A stretch of DNA of 64,000 nucleotides from Sphingobacterium corticibacter (GTDB taxonomy: Bacteria > Bacteroidota > Bacteroidia > Sphingobacteriales > Sphingobacteriaceae). The DNA is taken from the NCBI RefSeq assembly GCF_003076635.1, contig NZ_QDKG01000006.1, positions 62,001 to 126,000 on the forward strand, given 5' to 3'. Of this stretch, positions 8,281 to 44,285 are shown piece after piece (within the stretch, counting starts at the first letter, position 1; every line of letters begins with the position of its first letter). Both the position numbers and the translations under genes were made by a program. The notes beneath the pieces were generated by a model that saw only the letters and a list, made by a program, of their open reading frames with translations, was not told where the DNA came from and ran no database searches.

Positions 8281-9096
8281 TTAAAATTGTCCCCAATCTG
8301 TATCTACCTCTTCTACGGCCTTACTCTTATTCTTGGCTTCAACTGCTTGAATAAACTTGACCATGGATGAAATGTTACTGAATATCAGAACGCTTTCATC
8401 ATAATTTAATATTTGATTATCATGTGCATAGCTTCGATTATTACGAATGTCATTGAAAGCATCCATAATTTGAAAACTAAATTGAACTATTTTCTCAGCC
8501 ATTGAGGATTCTAAAAAGCCCTTTTCTCTAATGGCTTTTATATATTTTCCAAACAGCCCATTAACAGTTTCATCCTTAATTAAAGTGATTTTATGAAGCT
8601 CACAAAGCTCCTTTAAAAACTTTATAGTATAGGTATGTAACCTGTCAAGCGCAGCTTCGGGCTGGTTTTTTTCTATGCTTTCACGTATGAGTTTCGCTAG
8701 GGAATGGAAGTCTTTGTCGTCATTTATGGCTTGAATAGCATCAATGTGTTCAACGACACTTGCACCAGTTATCAGACGGTTGAAGATTTTAGTATACAAG
8801 CTGTAATAATTAGCATCTCTTGCTCTACCTTGTTGATTGTTAAAATTTACTAATTCTTCAAATAGAGCCTTTAGCAATAGTCCAACTGTATAATCTGATT
8901 CAAGTTCTACAAACTTAAGTAAACGTTGACCTTTTGATCCTGAGTTATTTTCGGAGTATTTCGGGTCATCAGCATTCAATCCGGTTACATCGTATATGAA
9001 ATCGTTAAAACTAGGATTTGAAAAATTAAGAACATAACCCGCCTGAACAAGATTATCTTTAATAATTTTATTTTCTTGGTAAGACAAATTTGCCAT
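8281..9096 (-). CDS. Abi_C-type abortive infection protein, 271 aa
   Basis: A second abortive-infection-like protein, unrelated in its N-terminal half to the AbiJ-like one. The C-terminal half carries the Abi_C signature: LDRLHTYTIKFLKELCELH, then FNDIRNNRSYAHDN with the R-N-N-x-S-x-A-H pattern typical of HEPN-like ribonuclease folds. Residues 1-130 are helical with no named domain that I recognise. It forms a single-gene module of about 0.9 kb with border motifs on both sides (8261 and 9166), which makes it a good example of one cassette. Likely role: cell suicide or dormancy on phage infection; the trigger is unknown. Confidence 0.75.
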   Translation of the reverse strand: MANLSYQENKIIKDNLVQAGYVLNFSNPSFNDFIYDVTGLNADDPKYSENNSGSKGQRLLKFVELESDYTVGLLLKALFEELVNFNNQQGRARDANYYSLYTKIFNRLITGASVVEHIDAIQAINDDKDFHSLAKLIRESIEKNQPEAALDRLHTYTIKFLKELCELHKITLIKDETVNGLFGKYIKAIREKGFLESSMAEKIVQFSFQIMDAFNDIRNNRSYAHDNQILNYDESVLIFSNISSMVKFIQAVEAKNKSKAVEEVDTDWGQF

Positions 9097-32044: not shown

Positions 32045-33049
32045 TTATTTTTTGCGATCGTGAATTTTGTGCTCGATGTCTTTGATGATTACGGAGATAA
32101 AATCTTGACCTGTCAGTTCAGACGCTTGCTGCAAAGCACCTGGGCTGAATACATTAATTTCCATAATCTTGCTGCCTACAATGTCTAAGCCTACCAAGTA
32201 CATGCCGTCTTTGACTAATTGATCGGCGACAAGTTTAACGACCTTGAGTGTATTTTCATCGATTTCGGCCGCATGCATGGTCGCTCCCTGATGCACATTG
32301 CTTCGGATTTCATTCTCTGGTTGCACTCTACGAACCGCAGCGTATTGGCCATTGATTTCGATCGGCTTACCATCCAATAGGAAAAAGCGAAGATCGCCTT
32401 TGCTGGCTTCTGGTAGATATTCCTGTGCAATAATATAACCATCCCGAGCGATGGCTTCTACCGTTTGCTTCAGATTTTGAGCGCTTTCTTTGTTGATGAG
32501 AAATACGTTTTTACCTCCCGAGCCTTTCAGTGGTTTCAGGATGATTTTCTCTTCATTCTTGTCAAAGAAATTTTGTACATCGGCATAGTTGCGCGTTACG
32601 ATGGTTTTTGGGCGGATGCTTTCGTCGAAGTTTTCCAGATACAATTTGTTGCTAGCACGCGTGAGCGCCTCTGGATTGTTGATTACGAAAACTCCTTGCT
32701 GCTGTGCCAATTCGGCAAACTGCAAACCAGCTGCGGCGGCCCACGGGCGCGAAATCATTTCGTCGGCCGCATCAAAACGTAGCCAAAGTACATCGATCTG
32801 CTTGAGATTGACAAGGCTCTTTTCGGTTTCCCGAACCACGTGTATAAAGTCTGACTCGGTCTGTATACTTTCGTGTGGCGATACTTGCCGTGCATGTGCG
32901 CCAACAACTACTTCGGGGTCGTAGTAGAAATCGGCCAAGCCGATGTAGAATACTTCATGTCCGCGCTCTAGCGCTTTCAATGCCAAGGAGGTCGTGGTGT
33001 AATAAGCCTCTTCTTTATGGGTCTGATTGATTACAAATGCTATTTTCAT
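32045..33049 (-). CDS. Glutathione synthetase-like ATP-grasp ligase, 334 aa
   Basis: ATP-grasp enzyme of the prokaryotic glutathione synthetase type, expected to form a peptide or amide bond with ATP. N-terminal KIAFVINQTHKEEAYYTT, then the ATP-grasp core ILKPLKGSGGKNVFLI (phosphate loop), IAQEYLPEASKGDLRFFLLD and LVGLDIVGSKIMEINVFSPG (metal-binding EIN). The ATG at 33047-33049 begins the domain. No gamma-glutamylcysteine ligase is near, so glutathione itself may not be the product. The known gene neighbourhood with a QEGLA peptidase and an N-formylglutamate amidohydrolase suggests a dedicated small-peptide pathway. Confidence 0.85.
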   Translation of the reverse strand: MKIAFVINQTHKEEAYYTTTSLALKALERGHEVFYIGLADFYYDPEVVVGAHARQVSPHESIQTESDFIHVVRETEKSLVNLKQIDVLWLRFDAADEMISRPWAAAAGLQFAELAQQQGVFVINNPEALTRASNKLYLENFDESIRPKTIVTRNYADVQNFFDKNEEKIILKPLKGSGGKNVFLINKESAQNLKQTVEAIARDGYIIAQEYLPEASKGDLRFFLLDGKPIEINGQYAAVRRVQPENEIRSNVHQGATMHAAEIDENTLKVVKLVADQLVKDGMYLVGLDIVGSKIMEINVFSPGALQQASELTGQDFISVIIKDIEHKIHDRKK

Positions 33050-33128
33050 ATGGAAATTATAATATTTGATACATGGCATTTCGGTCGAAGCGATGTGACA
33101 CGATACGAAATGGGGTAAATTGTCTTGT

Positions 33129-34958: not shown

Positions 34959-35724
34959 TAGCAAAGTATTCGTTTAACATATCTGTTGTGTGTAACAACA
35001 GCTGTTTGTAGCTTTGAAGCTTCTCTGGGTACAATTGGCCTGTCCATTCATCCATAAAATCTTTACGAAATTCTATGGAAAGTACGCAGCCATATGCACC
35101 GTAGTGATCGGTAATGTATTTGGCAAGGTAGCCGCCGTTGAATTTGACATTCTCTCGAATATCGACCGCTGGTAAGCCTACTTCTTGCTTGCGTACCGAG
35201 GTGATAAAGGATTTAATCAGTTCGTGCCATTTGGGATTGTTATGCGCAGTGCCCAGATTTATTTCAGGGTTTTTCTCTGTGTCGATTTCTTCAAACTGAT
35301 CGTTTCTTTTGGCATTGTAACTGTGAATATCGTAGATCACAAAATAGCCATATTGCTGAATGGTATCTTGAATTAAGGCATCAATCTGCTTATACATTTT
35401 GTCATGTGTCTCGTACAAGGTATTGACCAAGTCGGTCGGCAAATCCTCATCCCACACGGAGATGCCCCAAGCTTGCTCAGGCCGCAGGTAAACGGCATCT
35501 TTACGGATGCGATTAAGATCTAGCTGAAACCGCGATGTAGCAGATATAAATCGATTGAAAGGTAATTCTGCTAATGTGCCTGTCTGCGGATCTTCTTCGC
35601 GCAATCGCGTATCATCGTCTGCTACTAGATAGGGTAGCAGCGCATCATCTATCTGATGCCCATCGTGTATGGCAAAAGCCCAGAATGGGCTGTTTGTTTT
35701 TTCGATCAGGTGTATGTATTCCAT
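34942..35724 (-). CDS. N-formylglutamate amidohydrolase-like protein, 260 aa
   Basis: Resembles N-formylglutamate amidohydrolases (HutG type, zinc-dependent): WAFAIHDGHQID near the start, FVIYDIHSYNAKRND with the metal-binding D-x-H, and CVLSIEFRKDFMDEWTG. No histidine-degradation gene is near, so the role in histidine breakdown is doubtful; with the QEGLA peptidase and ATP-grasp enzyme it probably acts on a glutamate-containing peptide. Its first 88 codons and upstream DNA are duplicated at 42686-43148. Confidence 0.8.
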   Translation of the reverse strand: MEYIHLIEKTNSPFWAFAIHDGHQIDDALLPYLVADDDTRLREEDPQTGTLAELPFNRFISATSRFQLDLNRIRKDAVYLRPEQAWGISVWDEDLPTDLVNTLYETHDKMYKQIDALIQDTIQQYGYFVIYDIHSYNAKRNDQFEEIDTEKNPEINLGTAHNNPKWHELIKSFITSVRKQEVGLPAVDIRENVKFNGGYLAKYITDHYGAYGCVLSIEFRKDFMDEWTGQLYPEKLQSYKQLLLHTTDMLNEYFANEERK

Positions 35725-35922
35725 CCGTATATATTTTTAGTAAGCAGCATCCGATGCTAACTTGCTTTATTAACTCTTAAAGCCGTAAAAAGTTTGTTTT
35801 TGGGTGGTGGATTGATGGTTTGTATTTGTGACAAATATCCGGCTCTTTTTTACTGGTCTTTGCTTCGGAAAGTTGTTTTGTAAATATTTTTAATTTAAAA
35901 GATATTTTATTTATATTTATTG
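35460..35922. repeat. 463-bp direct repeat, left copy
   Basis: Covers codons 1-88 of the amidohydrolase and about 200 bp upstream. The right copy at 42686-43148 is nearly identical (few changes, for example A/G at 35501). The two copies bracket the bacteriocin island, so the island arrived by duplication or single-crossover integration. Confidence 0.85.
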
Positions 35923-35935
35923 ATTTAACATAAGT

Positions 35936-37030
35936 ATGAAATTTCCGCGGACAACAAGTGTAATTTACTTCACAATACTTGCATTGCTAATAATAATTCT
36001 ATTGGCATTGCCAATTATTCGTATCCCCATCTCGGTATCGGCTAGAGGAGTGGTAAGACCACAGCAAGAGAGTACTTCGCTTATCTCTTTGGTTAACGGG
36101 CGAGTCACTGATTCAAATATTGATAGGAATAATCAGCTTGTACGAAAAGGAGATACATTGTTAGTTATCACGGCGGATGCGCTCCATAGTAAGCGTCAAT
36201 ATCAGCAACGACAACAACAAGACTTTACTGACCAGTTATATGATTTAAAGATATTGACGAGTGGTTTGAATGGAGACTTGAAGACAGGACAGTATCAGAT
36301 GGAACTATCTGCATGGAATGAAAAGTTAAGTGAAATACAAGTGCAGCTAGTGTTAGCTGACAAAGAATTAAAACGTAACAGTCAATTGTATGAGATGGGC
36401 ATTTTGCCACTGGCAGAGTACGACAAAAGCTTTCATCATCATGAGCAATTGGCCGTTCAGAAAAAAGTCGCCAGAGAGCAACAAATCGCTACTTGGCAAG
36501 CACAAATGCGAGATGTGGAACGGCAAATACGAACGATATCGAATGATGTGTATCAGCTTAATATTGAGTCGTCTAACAATATCATTACGGCACCTATAGA
36601 CGGTAGAATAATAGACTTTTCAGGCGTCAAACCGGGTAACTTCATTGTGCAAGGTCAACAAGTTGCTATAATATCACCAGAAGAGGATCTGTTAGCAGAA
36701 TGCATGGTTCCGCCCAATGCTATTGGATTTATACGTAACAATCAGGTTGTTCGCTTTCAGATGGATACCTATAACTATAATCAATGGGGTTTAGCATCGG
36801 GCAGAGTGATTGATGTTGACCAGCAAATTCGAGTCAATGAACAGACCGGTGAATCATTTTTTATAGTTCGTTGTAGTATTGACGACGATTTTTTAGCCTT
36901 GAAAAATGGTTATCAGGGTAAAATTACAAAGGGAAATACCTACACAGCCAGATTTCATTTAACAGATCGCACGCTTTGGCAATTGCTCTTTGATAAGGCT
37001 GATGACTGGTTTAACCCTAGTTTTTTATAA
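35936..37030 (+). CDS. HlyD-family membrane fusion protein, 364 aa
   Basis: Periplasmic adaptor of a type I secretion system. A short cytosolic N-terminus and one membrane segment (VIYFTILALLIIILLALPII) are followed by the biotinyl-lipoyl-like beta domain (LVNGRVTDSNIDRNNQLVRK), a long alpha-hairpin coiled coil (about 90-220) and the returning strand NIITAPIDGRIIDFSGVKPG. First gene of the export operon, 32 bp before the ABC gene. It links the C39 transporter to TolC. Confidence 0.88.
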   Translation: MKFPRTTSVIYFTILALLIIILLALPIIRIPISVSARGVVRPQQESTSLISLVNGRVTDSNIDRNNQLVRKGDTLLVITADALHSKRQYQQRQQQDFTDQLYDLKILTSGLNGDLKTGQYQMELSAWNEKLSEIQVQLVLADKELKRNSQLYEMGILPLAEYDKSFHHHEQLAVQKKVAREQQIATWQAQMRDVERQIRTISNDVYQLNIESSNNIITAPIDGRIIDFSGVKPGNFIVQGQQVAIISPEEDLLAECMVPPNAIGFIRNNQVVRFQMDTYNYNQWGLASGRVIDVDQQIRVNEQTGESFFIVRCSIDDDFLALKNGYQGKITKGNTYTARFHLTDRTLWQLLFDKADDWFNPSFL

Positions 37031-37062: not shown

Positions 37063-39228
37063 ATGAGTGAATCAAAAATACGTGTAAAACAGCATGACAT
37101 TAAAGATTGTGGAGCAGCCTGTTTAGCTTCCATTGGGGGGTACCACGGTTTGCATCTGCCTATTGCGAAAATAAGACAATATTGTCACACTGATACTCGG
37201 GGAACTAATTTACTTGGGCTTATACAAGGTTTATCAAAAATGGGCTTTAATTCGAAAGGTGTTCGGGGTAATGAAGAAGCCTTGCCCCAAATTCCTTTGC
37301 CAGCAATTGCACATATTATTGTTAAGAAACAGCTGCAACATTATGTAGTTATTTATAAAGTAGATAAGCAACATATTACTGTGATGGACCCAGGAATTGG
37401 CAAGCTGGAAAAATACAACTTTGAAGCTTTTAAAAAAATTTGGACTGGTGTGTTGGTTTTGTTAGAACCTAATGAATATTTCGAAAAGCGAAATGAACGG
37501 ACCAACAACATGTTGCGCTTTTGGGAACTGATACAACCACATCGTTCTGTGGCTTTTCAAGCGCTAATAGGAGCTATGGTATACACGTTGCTCGGTTTGT
37601 CTTCAGCTATTTATATCGAAAAAATAACAGACTATGTGCTGATAGATGGTAATATTCGTCTGTTAAATCTACTTTCAGTAGGGATGATCGTTATACTGAT
37701 TTTTCAGATTTTCCTTGGAGCCATGAAGAGCGTTTTAGTATTGCAAACAGGACAGAGAATTGATAAGCATCTAATCTTAGGTTATTACAAACACTTGTTT
37801 AGTCTTCCGCAGCGGTTTTTCGACACCATGAAAGTGGGAGAGATTATATCAAGGGTTAATGATGCGGTAAAAATAAGGACCTTTATAAATGACGTATCCA
37901 TACAGATTGTGGTTAATGTCCTAATTGTTATCTTCTCCTTTACATTAATGTTCACCTATTATTGGAAACTTGCTCTAGTTGTTGCTATGATTATCCCGTT
38001 TTATCTCGGTGTATATTTAATAAGCAATCGTTTAAATAAAAAGGTAGAACGAAGGTTGATGGAAGAAGGTGCTGACTTGGAATCGCACTTGGTCGAGTCG
38101 CTAACAGCAGCGAAAACGATCAAACTCTTTGGTGTGGAATCCTTTGCAAATAATAAAACGGATCAGAGATTTAGTGTTTTGTTAAAAACTGTTTATCGAT
38201 CGGTTATGAATGGCCTTCTGTCTAGTAATGCGTCGGAGTTTTTGTCGCGCATGTTTACCATTGTTCTTTTGTGGGTGGGGTCAAAATATGTTATTGATCG
38301 TTTAATAACGCCAGGTGAACTTCTATCTTTCTACGCACTAATCGGTTATTTTACAGGGCCAGTTTCTCAGTTGATTGGCATGAACAAAAGTGTGCAGAAT
38401 GCACTGATTGCTTCAGATCGTTTATTTGAGATTATGGACTTAGAACGTGAGGAATTAACAGATAAAATTGATCTCAAAACGGAATTTATTGGTAATATTC
38501 ACTTTGATCAGGTCTCATTTAGTTATGGTTCTCGGTCAAATATCTTTGTCAACTTTAGTTGTGTATTTGAGATTGGTAAAACAACGGCGGTTGTAGGTGA
38601 GAGTGGTTCTGGAAAAACAACATTGGTCGGCTTGATACAAAACCTATACCCTTTGAAAAGTGGTAAGATACTGATTGGCGAATACGACATTAGCTATGTA
38701 TCTAATTATTCTTTACGTCATCTTATTTCGGTAGTGCCTCAACAAATTGAATTATTTTCTGGGAATGTAATTGATAATATTGCACTTGGTGAGGAGTTTC
38801 CAGATATGCAAAGAATAATCACGATAGCGAAGCAACTCGATATACTAAAATTTATAGATCAACTCCCTGACGGTTTTCAAACTTATCTAGGCGAAAATGG
38901 CACATTACTGTCCGGTGGACAGAAGCAGCGAATTGCGATCGCTCGTGCTTTTTATCGGAATCCGGAGATCTTAATTTTAGATGAAGCTACATCAGCGCTT
39001 GATTCTGAATCGGAGCTCGTCATTCAAAAGGCCTTCAATCTGCTAAAAGGAATGGGGAAAACGTTAATTATCATCGCACACCGACTGAGTAGTATAGCAC
39101 ACGCTGATAAGATTATAGTACTGAAGGAAGGACAAATCATTGAACAGGGTACACATCAGCAATTAGTGGATCACGAAAATTCCTACTATGGAAAACTTTG
39201 GAATAGACAAAGTCTGGTACTACGGTAA
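37063..39228 (+). CDS. C39-peptidase ABC transporter for double-glycine peptides, 721 aa
   Basis: Processing and export protein. The N-terminal C39 peptidase (about 1-135) has the catalytic Cys in QHDIKDCGAACLASIGG and His in QHYVVIYKV, followed by DPGIG. A six-helix ABC membrane domain (about 160-440) comes next, then the nucleotide-binding domain with Walker A GESGSGKTT, signature LSGGQKQRIAIARAF, and Walker B ILILDEATSALD with HRLSS. It should cut leaders after GG and export the four peptides encoded downstream. The gene is complete; its stop overlaps the TolC start (TAATG). Confidence 0.95.
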   Translation: MSESKIRVKQHDIKDCGAACLASIGGYHGLHLPIAKIRQYCHTDTRGTNLLGLIQGLSKMGFNSKGVRGNEEALPQIPLPAIAHIIVKKQLQHYVVIYKVDKQHITVMDPGIGKLEKYNFEAFKKIWTGVLVLLEPNEYFEKRNERTNNMLRFWELIQPHRSVAFQALIGAMVYTLLGLSSAIYIEKITDYVLIDGNIRLLNLLSVGMIVILIFQIFLGAMKSVLVLQTGQRIDKHLILGYYKHLFSLPQRFFDTMKVGEIISRVNDAVKIRTFINDVSIQIVVNVLIVIFSFTLMFTYYWKLALVVAMIIPFYLGVYLISNRLNKKVERRLMEEGADLESHLVESLTAAKTIKLFGVESFANNKTDQRFSVLLKTVYRSVMNGLLSSNASEFLSRMFTIVLLWVGSKYVIDRLITPGELLSFYALIGYFTGPVSQLIGMNKSVQNALIASDRLFEIMDLEREELTDKIDLKTEFIGNIHFDQVSFSYGSRSNIFVNFSCVFEIGKTTAVVGESGSGKTTLVGLIQNLYPLKSGKILIGEYDISYVSNYSLRHLISVVPQQIELFSGNVIDNIALGEEFPDMQRIITIAKQLDILKFIDQLPDGFQTYLGENGTLLSGGQKQRIAIARAFYRNPEILILDEATSALDSESELVIQKAFNLLKGMGKTLIIIAHRLSSIAHADKIIVLKEGQIIEQGTHQQLVDHENSYYGKLWNRQSLVLR

Positions 39229-40592
39229 TGTTAATCGATAAGATGAGTTATTTTAAGACAATTGGGGTTAATAGATACATATTATCTATCATCTTAATTG
39301 TCTCTTCCGTAAAAGTGTCCTGCTCGCAAGAGCGGTGGAGTTTGCAAAGATGTATTGACTCTGCACTAGTCAGAAATTATGAGATATCGAAACAAGAAAA
39401 AGAAATTCAAATTAGAAAGTACGATTATACTATAGCTAAGCGAGAACGTTTACCCGCAGTGCAAGGCTATAGCAATGTTTATACAAATTTTGGACGTTCT
39501 CAGGATATTTTTGGAACTATACAACGAAATGATAACCTGAATAGCAACATGGGCATTACGGCGGAAATCATGTTGTATAATTTTCATAGACTTCGTAATC
39601 AAGCTAGGCAGGCCTCGATTAATATAGATAAGGAGGTATTGGAAAAAGAAATTATGGATAGGGAACTGATCACGAGAGTAGTAGAAGCGTATCTTTCTGT
39701 TCTGATGCAAGTAGCTATAGTGGAAGCTAGGGATTCGGCAGTTATGTTTTCCAGGCATTTGTATGAACGTACTGAAAAAACTACGCAAATTGGAACGACC
39801 TCTAAGAGTGAATTGCATGAGGCTAAAGCAAATTTAACACGAGAGATGCAACAATTACAGAAGGTGATTATGGATCGTGAACTTGCTCGCTTAAAGTTAG
39901 CACAGTTAATACAGATGGAAAATTACAAAGATGTACTGTTTCTTCTGGATGAATTGGATTTAAAAATGGAGCAAGAAATCTTGCCTTTGGAAGACCTCGT
40001 GTTACAGTCCTATCAAAAGCAGCCAACGGCACGAAGATATGCTTTGTCTTTGCTAGATTTGAAGCTGCAGGAGCAAATCACAAAATCACAGCTATATCCG
40101 ACCATTTCAGGTTCGACTACAGTAGCTACGACCTATTTCAACGCATTTCGGCAATCTTTTACGGATCCTTTTCTTACGCAAAGCCGAAATAATTTCGCTC
40201 AACAAGTGGTATTGAATCTTAGTATACCAATTTTTGATCGGGGCAGGTCGCGAAACCAATTACCACAGTTAAATGTCAAAGAAAGCCAATTGCGTATTGA
40301 TAATGATTTGGAGCTTCTTTGGATACGCCAGCAAACGGAGGAAATATACTTGAATTATAATGTCAACAATCAGAATATGAACTATGCAGAGGAGGCAAGA
40401 GATGATACGCGTAAAGCGCTAGACTTTGCAGAAGCTAGTTTTAAAACTGGTCAGATCAGTATATATGAACTAAATACAAGTAGACAAAATTTTATTGAGG
40501 CGGAGAGTGAATTACTGAAAGCGAGATACAGCACGCTTTTTAGCTACAAGATGTTGCTGTATCAGATTAACGATACGTATATGGTATTTTAA
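39228..40592 (+). CDS. TolC-family outer-membrane channel, 454 aa
   Basis: Outer-membrane efflux channel completing the export system. After a signal-like stretch (ILSIILIVSSVKVSCSQ) it shows the two TolC repeats with long coiled coils (LVRNYEISKQEKEIQIRK, then YEREL-type helices and ELNTSRQNFIEAESELLKAR near the end). The start at 39228 overlaps the ABC stop by one base; 39243 is a possible second start. Cotranscribed with HlyD and the C39 transporter. Confidence 0.88.
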   Translation: MLIDKMSYFKTIGVNRYILSIILIVSSVKVSCSQERWSLQRCIDSALVRNYEISKQEKEIQIRKYDYTIAKRERLPAVQGYSNVYTNFGRSQDIFGTIQRNDNLNSNMGITAEIMLYNFHRLRNQARQASINIDKEVLEKEIMDRELITRVVEAYLSVLMQVAIVEARDSAVMFSRHLYERTEKTTQIGTTSKSELHEAKANLTREMQQLQKVIMDRELARLKLAQLIQMENYKDVLFLLDELDLKMEQEILPLEDLVLQSYQKQPTARRYALSLLDLKLQEQITKSQLYPTISGSTTVATTYFNAFRQSFTDPFLTQSRNNFAQQVVLNLSIPIFDRGRSRNQLPQLNVKESQLRIDNDLELLWIRQQTEEIYLNYNVNNQNMNYAEEARDDTRKALDFAEASFKTGQISIYELNTSRQNFIEAESELLKARYSTLFSYKMLLYQINDTYMVF

Positions 40593-40625: not shown

Positions 40626-40940
40626 ATGCATTTGTTTAGATATATCGATCGTATTAATTTAATGAATAAATTGATACAAGAACAACGTACAGGTAAGCCC
40701 GCAGAACTAGCATGTAGATTAGGGATTTCTGTTTCCCGTTTATTTGTGATCCTGGATCAGCTCAAAGATCAGGGAGCTCCAATACGTTATTGTAGAGAAC
40801 GGCATACTTATTATTACGAAGGTTTTTTCTCGGTCTCAATTACTGTGGAATTTGAGAAATTGGAAAGATCCGCATTTCGAGAAATAACAGGTGGTTGTGC
40901 CTTTTTTCGAAATAATTTTGCCACTACTTTTTTTGTGTAG
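40626..40940 (+). CDS. Small winged-helix DNA-binding protein, 104 aa
   Basis: The first half is an HTH_11-like winged helix: YIDRINLMNKLIQEQRTGKPAELACRLGI-type helices and SVSRLFVILDQLKDQG as recognition part. The second half (about 55-104) ends in a tail with ITGGCAFFRNN, reminiscent of a degraded GG-leader. It is common beside Bacteroidota bacteriocin loci and may regulate the peptide genes through the 52-bp element that follows. Confidence 0.7.
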   Translation: MHLFRYIDRINLMNKLIQEQRTGKPAELACRLGISVSRLFVILDQLKDQGAPIRYCRERHTYYYEGFFSVSITVEFEKLERSAFREITGGCAFFRNNFATTFFV

Positions 40941-40953
40941 TGAGTGCGGCTAA

Positions 40954-41005
40954 TTTAGTATTGTTGATCAACACAGCGGAATCCGAAAAGCTGGAAGAGA
41001 GTAGG
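40954..41005 (+). promoter_or_regulatory. 52-bp repeated element before peptide pair 1
   Basis: Identical to 42039-42090 except for two bases. It holds the palindrome TGTTGATCAACA and CAGC...GCTG, so it can fold as a leader hairpin or act as an operator. It ends 22 bp before the first peptide's ATG. Confidence 0.7.
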
Positions 41006-41027
41006 AAGTAATTTTTAGTAATTTTAT

Positions 41028-41195
41028 ATGAATCATTTGGAAATCAATAATATTGAAGACTTAAGTTTTGCCGAAATGAGTGATGTAACAGGAGGAAATT
41101 TTTGGAAATATGCTTTCGAATTTGCTGCAATTTATGATGCCGTTATGGATTTTGGATCTGGTTTTAAACAAGGATTTGCCGATGCAACGCGATAA
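41028..41195 (+). CDS. Double-glycine bacteriocin-like peptide 1, 55 aa
   Basis: Too short for most gene finders. The leader is 23 residues: L at -12, E at -8, M at -7, V at -4 and the cleavage pair GG at 22-23 (NIEDLSFAEMSDVTGG). The mature part of 32 residues has NFWKYAFEF, an amphipathic helix and the GxxxG motif GFKQG near the end. The leader should be removed by the C39 transporter. GxxxG and pairing with the next gene suggest a class IIb two-peptide bacteriocin. Confidence 0.8.
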   Translation: MNHLEINNIEDLSFAEMSDVTGGNFWKYAFEFAAIYDAVMDFGSGFKQGFADATR

Positions 41196-41218
41196 TAAGT
41201 ATATAAATTTTATATAAC

Positions 41219-41398
41219 ATGGAAGATATTAGTAAACTAAATTTAGAAATACTATCAGAATCTGAAATTTTGGATATTGATGGTGGAGGAATTTTTGAAG
41301 ACATTGGGTATGCTATAGGATATGCTTTTGGCACTTTTTGGGATGCCCAGGGTAGTGGTATGAATGGTAATATCGGTGGCCCCTCAGCTCGTTATTAA
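41219..41398 (+). CDS. Double-glycine bacteriocin-like peptide 2, 59 aa
   Basis: Leader LEILSESEILDIDGG with L at -12, E at -8, I at -7 and I at -4 if cut after G23. The mature part begins GIFEDIGYAIGYAFG with GxxxG (GYAIG), then a Gly-rich tail. It starts 23 bp after peptide 1, so the pair is coexpressed. Confidence 0.8.
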   Translation: MEDISKLNLEILSESEILDIDGGGIFEDIGYAIGYAFGTFWDAQGSGMNGNIGGPSARY

Positions 41399-41408
41399 TC
41401 ATGTTTTG

Positions 41409-41443
41409 TTATTAGTATATGGCATTTTGCCATATACTAATAA
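41409..41443 (+). terminator. Perfect 16-bp hairpin over the CPBP start
   Basis: Arms 41409-41424 and 41428-41443 are exact complements with a 3-nt loop; the sequence after it is AT-rich without a full T-run. The ATG of the immunity candidate (41419) lies inside the left arm, so the hairpin can both limit readthrough and hide the start codon. Confidence 0.6.
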
Positions 41444-41937
41444 TCTTATTCAAATATTTGACGGATTTGTCAATAAAGAAAATAATTAATAAAAAACACG
41501 ATTTAAAAAAGTTGTTCCTGTTATTTGCAAGTATCAAGCTTCTAATGACAGGTTTTTTGTCTTTTCTAGTATCGATGTTTGATGAGAGCTTGTTGCGAAA
41601 TCCAATTGAAGACAATGCTAAATGTGTCATTTTTTTTATTACCCTTCTTATAGCCCCTTTCTTTGAAACATTTATTTTTCAATATCTAGTTTTTTATTTC
41701 GGAAGAATGTTTAGGCAGAAAAAAATCACAACTATTCTTTTATCCACTCTATTTTTCGCTCTAGCACATCAATATAATTTGATCTATTTTTTTGTTACAG
41801 TTGTTGCAGGAGCGTATTATGCTTGCACTTTCTTCTATATCGAAAAGAAGTCAAGTAACTTTACATCATTTTTGTTTGTATCGCTTCTTCACGCTTTAAA
41901 TAATTTTATTGCTTTTATAATAAATATTACATCATGA
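41419..41937 (+). CDS. CPBP-family membrane protein, probable bacteriocin immunity, 172 aa
   Basis: Abi/CPBP membrane protein (the intramembrane protease family used as bacteriocin self-immunity). Several hydrophobic segments and the motif triplet: LLIAPFFETFIFQYLVF (motif 1, where the usual EE-x-x-x-R is degraded to ET...Q), FFALAHQYN (motif 2) and SLLHALNNFI (motif 3). Loss of the first glutamate pair may mean a binding role without proteolysis. The start at 41419 lies in the hairpin; no other ATG fits before residue 43. Confidence 0.75.
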   Translation: MAFCHILIILFKYLTDLSIKKIINKKHDLKKLFLLFASIKLLMTGFLSFLVSMFDESLLRNPIEDNAKCVIFFITLLIAPFFETFIFQYLVFYFGRMFRQKKITTILLSTLFFALAHQYNLIYFFVTVVAGAYYACTFFYIEKKSSNFTSFLFVSLLHALNNFIAFIINITS

Positions 41938-41961
41938 GAATGATAATTCTTATGATGTAAT
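41926..41961 (+). terminator. Strong hairpin at the end of the CPBP gene
   Basis: ATTACATCAT (41926-41935) pairs with ATGATGTAAT (41952-41961), with an inner AGAAT/ATTCT helix. It overlaps the CPBP stop codon and should end the first peptide operon. Confidence 0.65.
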
Positions 41962-42038
41962 ATTTGAGCAATTAAGGGAGACCGTCCCTGCCAAATTTTC
42001 AGGTCGTTACCGTTATTCTCCTAGTTTTTTGATACATT

Positions 42039-42090
42039 TTTAGTGTTGTTGATCAACACAGCGGAATCCGAAAAGCTGGAAAAGAGTAGG
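42039..42090 (+). promoter_or_regulatory. 52-bp repeated element before peptide pair 2
   Basis: Second copy of the element at 40954-41005 (two differences), including TGTTGATCAACA. It ends 24 bp before the ATG of peptide 3. Both peptide pairs therefore share one control signal. Confidence 0.7.
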
Positions 42091-42114
42091 TAGAAATTAT
42101 TAAAATTTGATAAG

Positions 42115-42267
42115 ATGAATAATTTAGATGTAACAAAATTTGGTGTTCAGGAGTTGGACTCAAATGAGATGAACAGCATCGATGGCGGTTACATAGGCTT
42201 AATTGCCTTAGGTCTTAGCCTAGTAGGAGGAGCTTATTTAGCAGGCGAGGCTGCAGGTAAAGCGTAA
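42115..42267 (+). CDS. Double-glycine bacteriocin-like peptide 3, 50 aa
   Basis: Leader FGVQELDSNEMNSIDGG with L at -12, E at -8, M at -7, I at -4 and cleavage after G25. The mature part of 25 residues is very hydrophobic (YIGLIALGLSLVGGAYLAG) and ends with GxxxG (GEAAG), as pore-forming class IIb peptides do. Confidence 0.8.
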   Translation: MNNLDVTKFGVQELDSNEMNSIDGGYIGLIALGLSLVGGAYLAGEAAGKA

Positions 42268-42296
42268 TATTATTTAACTAATTAAACAAATTTTGC

Positions 42297-42422
42297 ATGG
42301 AAAATATTCATGAATTATCGATGGAAGAATACTCCGAAACTAACGGAGGCGGATTAATAGTTATTGCATTTGCGCTTGGTTTCTATATCGGTTACAAAGA
42401 AACTGAATTTGCAAATAAATAA
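42297..42422 (+). CDS. Double-glycine bacteriocin-like peptide 4, 41 aa
   Basis: Short leader MENIHELSMEEYSETNGG: L at -12, E at -8, Y at -7, cleavage after G18. The mature part (GLIVIAFALGFYIGYKETEF) is a single hydrophobic helix with GxxxG (GFYIG) and a charged tail. Partner of peptide 3. Confidence 0.75.
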   Translation: MENIHELSMEEYSETNGGGLIVIAFALGFYIGYKETEFANK

Positions 42423-42475: not shown

Positions 42476-42637
42476 ATGGAGAGTTTTTATATTTATAGTA
42501 TGGGGAAAAATGGGTCTGAAAATAAATTGATTATTGTAATTGCAATAGCTCTTATTATAACGATATTCTTTTATATCATTGGAAAATCATTAGGGTCTAT
42601 ATATTACAACATCTCTCAAAATATCGTTTCACAGTGA
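42476..42637 (+). CDS. Small membrane protein, candidate immunity for peptides 3/4, 53 aa
   Basis: From the ATG at 42476: a short polar start, one strong membrane helix (LIIVIAIALIITIFFYII) and a polar tail. Not recognised as a family. By position (after a peptide pair and a hairpin, like the CPBP gene) it is probably the immunity protein of the second pair. The TTG at 42452 would put the start inside the terminator stem. Confidence 0.5.
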   Translation: MESFYIYSMGKNGSENKLIIVIAIALIITIFFYIIGKSLGSIYYNISQNIVSQ

Positions 42638-42685: not shown

Positions 42686-42950
42686 AGATGCCCCAAGCTT
42701 GCTCAGGCCGCAGGTAAACGGCATCTTTGCGGATGCGATTAAGATCTAGCTGAAACCGCGATGTAGCAGATATAAATCGATTGAAAGGTAATTCTGCTAA
42801 TGTGCCTGTCTGCGGATCTTCTTCGCGCAATCGCGTATCATCGTCTGCTACTAGATAGGGTAGCAGCGCATCATCTATCTGATGCCCATCGTGTATGGCA
42901 AAAGCCCAGAATGGGCTGTTTGTTTTTTCGATCAGGTGTATGTATTCCAT
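42686..42950 (-). pseudogene. Truncated copy of the N-formylglutamate amidohydrolase gene
   Basis: Encodes residues 1-88 of the gene at 34942-35724 without amino-acid differences, then runs into a stop. It has the duplicate promoter and may be transcribed, but it lacks the metal site and cannot be active. Confidence 0.85.
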
Positions 42951-43148
42951 CCGTATATATTTTTAGTAAGCAGCATCCGATGCTAACTTGCTTTATTAAC
43001 TCTTAAAGCCGTAAAAAGTTTTTTTTTGGGTGGTGGATTGATGGTTTGTATTTGTGACAAATATCCGGCTCTTTTTTACTGGTCTTTGCCTCGGAAAGTT
43101 GTTTTGTAAATATTTTTACTTTAAAAGATATTTTATTTATATTTATTG
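42686..43148. repeat. 463-bp direct repeat, right copy
   Basis: Near-identical to 35460-35922. It contains a broken 88-codon 5' piece of the amidohydrolase gene on the minus strand (42686-42950) and the region upstream of it. The cut lies at codon 88, where the bacteriocin island joins. Confidence 0.85.
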
Positions 43149-43175: not shown

Positions 43176-44285
43176 ATGATGATTAGACTTTTTAGCATAT
43201 TGCTGACTTATATTCTTTTTCTCGGAGATAACTCATATGCTCAAATCCAATTTATCGATAGCTTAAGTGGTCAGCCTATTGCAGCAATGAATGTCTTTAA
43301 TCTAGACGGAATGCTTATTGGAACAACTACTGTCAATGGACATGTTGGATTATTAACTACTAATTCTTTCGAGAAGAATTTTAGCAATTATGTCGTTACT
43401 GATCACATTGCCTATAAACCTGTTCGCATTTTTGTAGACGACTTTGAGAATACGCAAGTGTACAAAGTGATTCCGATGACGAAAAATATATCGGAAGTGG
43501 TGATTCAAAGACCTTCTTTATCCAAAGATGATGTCATTAAACTTAGCTGCTATTATAGGAGTTTTGATAACTATGATCAGAATAATCGATACTATTTTGA
43601 TGGAATCATTGATTGTTATATCCCTCTTTCGGGCACCGCTCCCAAATACGAACTGATAGATTACCGTATTTTCTTGAATGATAGTGTTCATCATGATTTC
43701 AAAAAGGTGACGGGTAATTTTTTGTCATTCAGTTTTTTGCCAGAAATATCGATAGAAAATTTGGGGACAAGATTAAGTAAACTAGATGTCGATGACGGGG
43801 CATCATATCGATACATCAGGAAAGAAGATGCAATAGTTGGGCATCTTAAAGAACAAACAGATAACATTGAACTGTACTTGGATAAGGTAAAACCTGATTC
43901 GGTATTACGTAGTAAACTTTTTGGTTTTGAACTTCAAATATTCGAAGAAAAGGTATATGAAGTCTATGGGATAAAGCAACAGCTCGAGGCAATAAATGTA
44001 TACGATTTAGAACGAATCAGTGAGACACTTATTAGCAAAATAAAACGTGGTAAAATGGAATTAATGCCCTATGAGGTGAGTACTCAATTGTATGTGCTCA
44101 ACCGGAAGATGATAACCCAAAAGGAATATAAAACATTCCAGAAGAAGTTATTTAAAAATATACGAAGACTACCAGAGACGAGCGATTTTAAAAATAAATA
44201 TTGGGAAAATTTTGCAATGCAAGGTATCCCAGAAGTCCCTCAACAGCTGCAATTGGACAGCAAAATGGAACTATTATTTCAATAA
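43176..44285 (+). CDS. Secreted protein with carboxypeptidase-like regulatory domain, 369 aa
   Basis: Signal peptide (LFSILLTYILFLGDNSYAQ), then a CarboxypepD_reg-like beta sandwich (about 22-100: IQFIDSLSGQPIAAMNVFN, GHVGLLTTNSF) and ITEVVIQ-like NISEVVIQRPS, the usual link in Bacteroidota proteins. The rest (about 110-369) is helical and unrecognised, without a TonB barrel. Before the island arrived, it probably stood divergent to the amidohydrolase gene. Second ATG at 43179. Confidence 0.6.
   Translation: MMIRLFSILLTYILFLGDNSYAQIQFIDSLSGQPIAAMNVFNLDGMLIGTTTVNGHVGLLTTNSFEKNFSNYVVTDHIAYKPVRIFVDDFENTQVYKVIPMTKNISEVVIQRPSLSKDDVIKLSCYYRSFDNYDQNNRYYFDGIIDCYIPLSGTAPKYELIDYRIFLNDSVHHDFKKVTGNFLSFSFLPEISIENLGTRLSKLDVDDGASYRYIRKEDAIVGHLKEQTDNIELYLDKVKPDSVLRSKLFGFELQIFEEKVYEVYGIKQQLEAINVYDLERISETLISKIKRGKMELMPYEVSTQLYVLNRKMITQKEYKTFQKKLFKNIRRLPETSDFKNKYWENFAMQGIPEVPQQLQLDSKMELLFQ

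Follow-up and report, generated by a model that had tools for sequence, protein, structure and literature searches.

A candidate island for two two-peptide bacteriocins with one shared exporter in Sphingobacterium corticibacter

A complete set of neighbouring genes in Sphingobacterium corticibacter probably serves to make and export small antibacterial peptides in two distinct pairs, as judged from their sequences; the peptides closely resemble two-peptide bacteriocins of lactic acid bacteria. We are fairly confident that these genes form a self-contained bacteriocin island, with two cognate class IIb-like (two-peptide, unmodified) bacteriocins and one shared exporter. The island lies within a stretch of 64 kb, hereafter the window, which was analysed as a whole. 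A sequence-only reading had already proposed two two-peptide bacteriocin candidates with one exporter, arguing mainly from a GxxxG motif in each peptide. That core stands, and the motif is weak when taken alone. The reading is instead supported by conserved gene pairs, by matches to lactococcin G models below threshold, by a cerein match of the third peptide, by a plantaricin K-like core in the second and by a membrane protease of the CPBP type. The paired system recurs across the family and appears to be undescribed. To our knowledge, work on two-peptide bacteriocins has dealt almost exclusively with Gram-positive bacteria. A Bacteroidota family that combines cognate pairs with immunity genes would offer a test of how such peptides cross an outer membrane or work behind it, and of their receptors.

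Two pairs of double-glycine precursors

The leader pattern comprises leucine at position -12, glutamate at -8, a hydrophobic or aromatic residue at -7 and the double glycine (GG) at -2/-1. Among the 183 small open reading frames (35-80 aa) of the window, a strict scan finds this pattern in four, whereas 0.03 are expected from block-shuffled windows. All four are real frames of the plus strand, as the sequence-only reading had stated together with their leader residues: pep1 (41028-41195), pep2 (41219-41398), pep3 (42115-42267) and pep4 (42297-42422). The residue at -7 is M, I, M and Y, respectively. Each mature part also contains the GxxxG motif attributed to it, namely GFKQG in pep1, GYAIG in pep2, GEAAG in pep3 and GFYIG in pep4, and pep2 has GYAFG and GNIGG besides. 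By composition alone, the probability of finding at least one such motif, estimated by shuffling, is 0.17, 0.90, 0.73 and 0.22 for pep1 to pep4 (jointly ~0.02). The motif is thus weak evidence for pep2 and pep3, where composition makes it likely. Overall, leader and context provide strong evidence, and GxxxG taken alone provides weak evidence. In the nearest homologues the motif occupies the same position (GFAIG and GYVVG in alpha peptides, GLKEG and GLKAG in beta peptides). It is not invariant, being absent from the beta peptide of one locus (L051) and replaced by AxxxG in the S. faecium homologue of pep4.

Several class IIb traits are recognised in these precursors. Two different GG-leader peptides come from adjacent genes, their pairing is kept in relatives, and all four peptides carry a GxxxG or GxxxG-like motif. 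The class IIb peptides known so far are mostly cationic, a usual but not absolute trait which pep1-pep4 do not share: the net charge of their mature parts is -1, -2, 0 and 0, that is, neutral or acidic. Unmodified, the mature peptides would have masses near 3669.7, 3758.7, 2347.3 and 2563.4 Da.

The first pair resembles lactococcin G. The beta-like partner, pep1 (mature part NFWKYAFEFAAIYDAVMDFGSGFKQGFADATR), matches NF038034 (lactococcin G-beta / enterocin 1071B) with E 1.5e-6 and 28.3 bits, and the alpha-like partner, pep2, matches NF038035 (lactococcin G-alpha / enterocin 1071A) with E 1.9e-5 and 24.7 bits. Both scores are under the curated cut-off of 37, which places the pair outside the lactococcin G family as these models delimit it. 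The genes are ordered beta then alpha, and each peptide matches its own partner model, as do several homologues. With the mature parts alone, pep1 retains its NF038034 match (E 0.0031) and pep2 matches neither lactococcin G model, so the scores are partly due to the leader.

Against the PDB, pep2 matches plantaricin K best (E 0.23), with ten consecutive identical residues, IGYAIGYAFG; the local score of this segment was reached by 0 of 5000 shuffles. Compared with the same segment, the alpha homologues of S. prati and Pedobacter score above all 5000 shuffles and that of Rhinopithecimicrobium faecis gives P 0.0008. In PDB searches the plantaricin K match comes from the single pep2 sequence only: profiles built from the alpha and beta alignments returned no bacteriocin relative, and the Pedobacter alpha peptide as a single query gave no match. 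Adjacent beta-alpha genes are kept in S. prati, R. faecis, S. faecium, S. siyangense and others, with looser versions in Pedobacter and one further genus. No plasmid match was found for pep2.

The second pair is related to a different class IIb family. With 22.2 bits, pep3 (mature part YIGLIALGLSLVGGAYLAGEAAGKA) exceeds the cut-off of 21.5 of TIGR03949, the NCBI model of lactobin A / cerein 7B (class IIb), and qualifies as a member. Its homologues in S. faecium (L068:3087), R. faecis and Pedobacter sp. ISL-64 reach 32.7, 24.7 and 31.4 bits. Its partner pep4 (mature part GLIVIAFALGFYIGYKETEFANK) has no match to this model, and one homologue in the pep4 position scores 18.9 bits, under the same cut-off. 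Homologous pep3-pep4 pairs are found in S. faecium and Pedobacter. In S. faecium the pep4 homologue (L068:3272) adjoins the pep3 homologue, and the same locus includes a pair of the pair-1 type, which is the combination seen in the window. Two pairs in one Bacteroidota locus had been regarded as unusual. This view is wrong for the family at hand, since R. faecis (L065) and S. faecium (L068) have two pairs each and Sphingobacterium sp. xlx-96 (L062) has at least six GG peptides. In xlx-96 (L062:10412-15121, the same region as L055) these peptides are accompanied by partial copies of the RNA leader element described below, an arrangement reminiscent of module shuffling at this element.

The physical character of the peptides bears on a rather unlikely alternative, a surface-bound and contact-dependent system like Cdz of Caulobacter, in which type I-exported glycine-rich peptides aggregate on the producer and kill by contact instead of diffusing. 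The Gram-negative layout is the same, with a pair of small GxxxG proteins, a type I exporter to secrete them and a small membrane immunity protein (PMC5380434), and the second pair is very hydrophobic (GRAVY 1.19 for pep3 and 0.71 for pep4). However, CdzC and CdzD have extended GxxxGxxxG zippers and RTX-type-like N-terminal secretion regions (PMC5380434), whereas pair 1 is only moderately hydrophobic and its GxxxG motifs are scattered; the overlapping GYAIG and GYAFG of pep2 are the sole approach to such a zipper.

Exporter and immunity-type genes

The HlyD / C39-ABC / TolC exporter claimed upstream of the peptides is confirmed by Pfam and is intact, all three genes lying on the plus strand. 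The HlyD-type periplasmic adaptor (35936-37030; PF13437, E 4.8e-14) is the first gene in relatives as well, with 46-55% identity. It is followed by a C39 peptidase / ABC exporter (PCAT) of the type expected to cleave after GG (37063-39228; PF03412, E 1.9e-35, with PF00664 and PF00005), which is ~70% identical in relatives, and by a TolC-like outer-membrane channel (39228-40592; PF02321, E 4.7e-38). The dedicated PCAT exporter typical of class IIb is therefore present. Two more C39 exporters are encoded in the genome (G000:C6:207113 and G000:C5:284046), only ~30% identical to that of the island. No strict-leader GG peptide was found beside either of them; on both grounds they were rejected as additional parts of the system.

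Beside each pair lies, by sequence, a candidate for the membrane-associated immunity gene that is characteristic of class IIb. Pair 1 is followed, here and in relatives, by a gene for a CPBP / Rce1-like membrane protease (41419-41937, plus strand; PF02517, E 1.3e-9). Its conserved motifs are ET..FQ, F.L.H and HA..N, the first being ET..FQ and not EExxxR. For plantaricins EF and JK, immunity is provided by proteins of the CPBP (Abi) class (PMC8538875). Directly after pair 2 lies a gene for a 45-aa one-helix membrane protein (42500-42637, plus strand). Similar small proteins occur in two other loci (L051 and L055), and related pair-2-like loci have either a small protein of this kind or a putative zincin peptidase (DUF3267). 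For the CPBP and the 45-aa protein alike, it is their position that makes an immunity role probable.

In Sphingobacterium sp. xlx-96 (L055:8137-8304 and 8311-8454), a leaderless 47-aa protein resembles the mature core of the adjacent GG peptide with a score of 82, above all 2000 shuffles. So strong a likeness to the toxin core suggests immunity by mimicry in that strain. For the 45-aa protein of the window mimicry was considered and rejected, its similarity to the toxin core not being significant (P ~0.05-0.08).

Regulator, RNA leader and island borders

Between tolC and the peptides, in a conserved position, lies the gene of a 104-aa winged-helix DNA-binding protein (40626-40940, plus strand), the probable local regulator. 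No Pfam family matches this protein above cut-off. Its AF2 model has a winged-HTH core with a pLDDT of ~90 over residues 11-60, and the nearest folds are regulators of the NiaR / BirA type, a weak match (best E 0.035). The gene is present in 28 of 94 genus genomes, and the 27 named loci with a copy belong to Sphingobacterium, Pedobacter, Rhinopithecimicrobium, Nubsella and unassigned Sphingobacteriales.

A probable operator overlaps the regulator gene at its 3′ end: the inverted repeat CACTAC-TTTTTTTGT-GTAGTG around a T-run (40922-40942). A conserved TAATTTAG (40951-40958) follows 15 nt downstream of the repeat and resembles the Bacteroidota -7 element. Regulators with the helix ARIIEYL or ARIIEHL go with repeat arms AATGC/GCATT in each of the 11 loci concerned; loci with the helix YV.(L/I)D.L have arms of the CACTAC/CCACTC kind where the repeat is clear. 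At every locus whose repeat is clear, the recognition-helix type thus varies together with the arms, which suggests that the regulator binds the repeat. The two regulator/repeat types may also simply be two lineages. No clear inverted repeat precedes the second operon of the window, where the downstream half of the element, which is the RF02914 RNA described below, is kept.

This local regulator would also suit peptide pheromones, that is, exported GG peptides sensed by kin like the class II-like inducers of lactic acid bacteria, which are likewise processed by C39 exporters and carry GG leaders. We hold this to be very unlikely: no two-component system (histidine kinase, response regulator) is found in the island, the pairs are conserved with immunity-type genes, and the mature parts are long, helical and glycine-zipper-like.

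Both operons begin with a DUF805b cis-regulatory RNA (RF02914) on the plus strand. The first copy of the leader element spans 40954-41017 (RF02914 at 40973-41007, 48.2 bits) and the second 42039-42102 (RF02914 at 42058-42092, 49.9 bits); both belong to the family by its gathering score of 35.6. Together they form a 64-nt repeat with 92% identity. No further site in the genome passes this score, and both copies lie 20-25 nt before the start codon of a GG peptide. In 17 of the 28 regulator-bearing genus genomes DUF805b occurs 33-44 nt after the regulator gene, a constant spacing.

That DUF805b might be bacteriocin-specific was considered and rejected. The element is above threshold in 76 of 395 sampled phylum genomes, and GG peptides lie downstream in about one third of the checked genus loci and in fewer of the phylum sample. 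Elsewhere it mostly precedes genes for small or exported proteins. Across further Bacteroidota loci (L104-L161) the distance to the start codon is again a near-constant 20-25 nt, and the targets include GG peptides and a TOMM-like precursor. DUF805b thus looks like a general leader element. No account of its function was found, and the present locus provides a concrete biological setting for it.

The genes from hlyD to that of the 45-aa protein are bounded by a 463-bp direct repeat whose copies differ by 4 mismatches. The left copy (35460-35922) is the 5′ part of an N-formylglutamate amidohydrolase-like gene, and the right copy (42686-43148) is a truncated gene fragment, which implies a recent insertion or duplication. 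As the amidohydrolase gene and its QEGLA neighbour stand together in relatives, the island appears to be an insertion. Beyond the right copy, a 369-aa associated protein, probably exported, is encoded at 43176-44285 (plus strand). In 10 genus genomes a homologue is encoded no more than ~7 kb from the regulator gene, and others occur alone elsewhere. It has no Pfam match, and its structure model is too poor to use (pLDDT 44).

The neighbourhood also includes an ATP-grasp-like gene (32045-33079, read from its translation) which, together with weak leader-only matches to TIGR04149 (rSAM-modified RiPP; E 0.04-0.08), could point to RiPP precursors modified by an enzyme encoded outside the island; we give this hardly any credence, since the mature parts contain no Cys, no RiPP-modifying enzyme gene was found within the island, and the amidohydrolase and QEGLA genes beside the ATP-grasp-like gene look like housekeeping neighbours, being kept in relatives of which several are without a regulator or alpha-peptide match.

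Proposed mechanism and relation to known systems

For two class IIb-like pairs with a shared exporter, we infer the following course for cleavage and export, for pore formation and synergy, and for immunity and operator binding. The C39-ABC protein would cut each precursor after GG and, together with HlyD and TolC, carry the mature peptides across both membranes; GG cleavage and two-membrane export are established for this class of exporter. Outside the cell, pep1 and pep2 would act as one cognate pair (beta/alpha) and pep3 and pep4 as the second, full activity of a class IIb bacteriocin depending on both peptides. By the precedent of lactococcin G and plantaricin JK, the GxxxG helices of each pair would be expected to associate within the inner membrane of related bacteria, rendering it leaky. 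Self-protection against pair 1 would come from the CPBP protein and against pair 2 from the 45-aa membrane protein. The pair 1 operon is probably under the control of the winged-helix protein, acting through the upstream inverted repeat, and the DUF805b RNA probably sets translation or transcript fate of both operons.

More tentatively, the island might represent a branch of genuine class IIb bacteriocins in Gram-negative bacteria, one that shares ancestry with lactococcin G, plantaricin K and cerein and has not just converged on them. Pairs and their immunity genes would then be exchangeable modules served by a shared exporter and an orphan DUF805b, with a regulator co-evolving with its DNA site. 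We regard this wider proposal as possible and somewhat doubtful.

The literature searched gave no locus-level account of the present system. Novelty is limited, as Cdz (PMC5380434) and, according to a commentary on the IIBacFinder survey, class II precursor candidates in Bacteroidota (PMC12648078) are already reported; as far as that commentary goes, the region of the window may be among these candidates.

Among Gram-positive systems, lactococcin G and enterocin 1071 have in common with pair 1 two adjacent GG precursors, GxxxG helices and partner-specific model matches. They differ in being cationic and in using LagC, whereas the pair 1 peptides are acidic, stand beside a CPBP gene and come from a Gram-negative producer with HlyD and TolC. 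Plantaricin JK shares the IGYAIGYAFG of PlnK with pep2 and, through PlnL, the CPBP (Abi) class of immunity protein; a match between pep1 and PlnJ was not found, and producer, exporter and regulation are unlike, the island having no two-component system. With lactobin A / cerein 7B the relation is through pep3 and three homologues above the TIGR03949 cut-off, here in a Gram-negative context.

Two Gram-negative systems are closest in setting. Bacteroidetocins are GG-leader peptide bacteriocins of Bacteroidota with C39-ABC exporters, but they are single, Cys-containing, class IIa-like peptides associated with a thiol oxidoreductase and lacking an immunity protein. Cdz of Caulobacter (CdzA, B, C, D and I) is a two-peptide toxin which is exported by type I secretion and acts by contact (PMC5380434). 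It resembles the island in its Gram-negative host, type I secretion, two GxxxG peptides and small membrane immunity protein, and differs from it in its peptides and leaders, in its aggregating, contact-dependent action and in that neither a winged-helix regulator nor DUF805b is known there.
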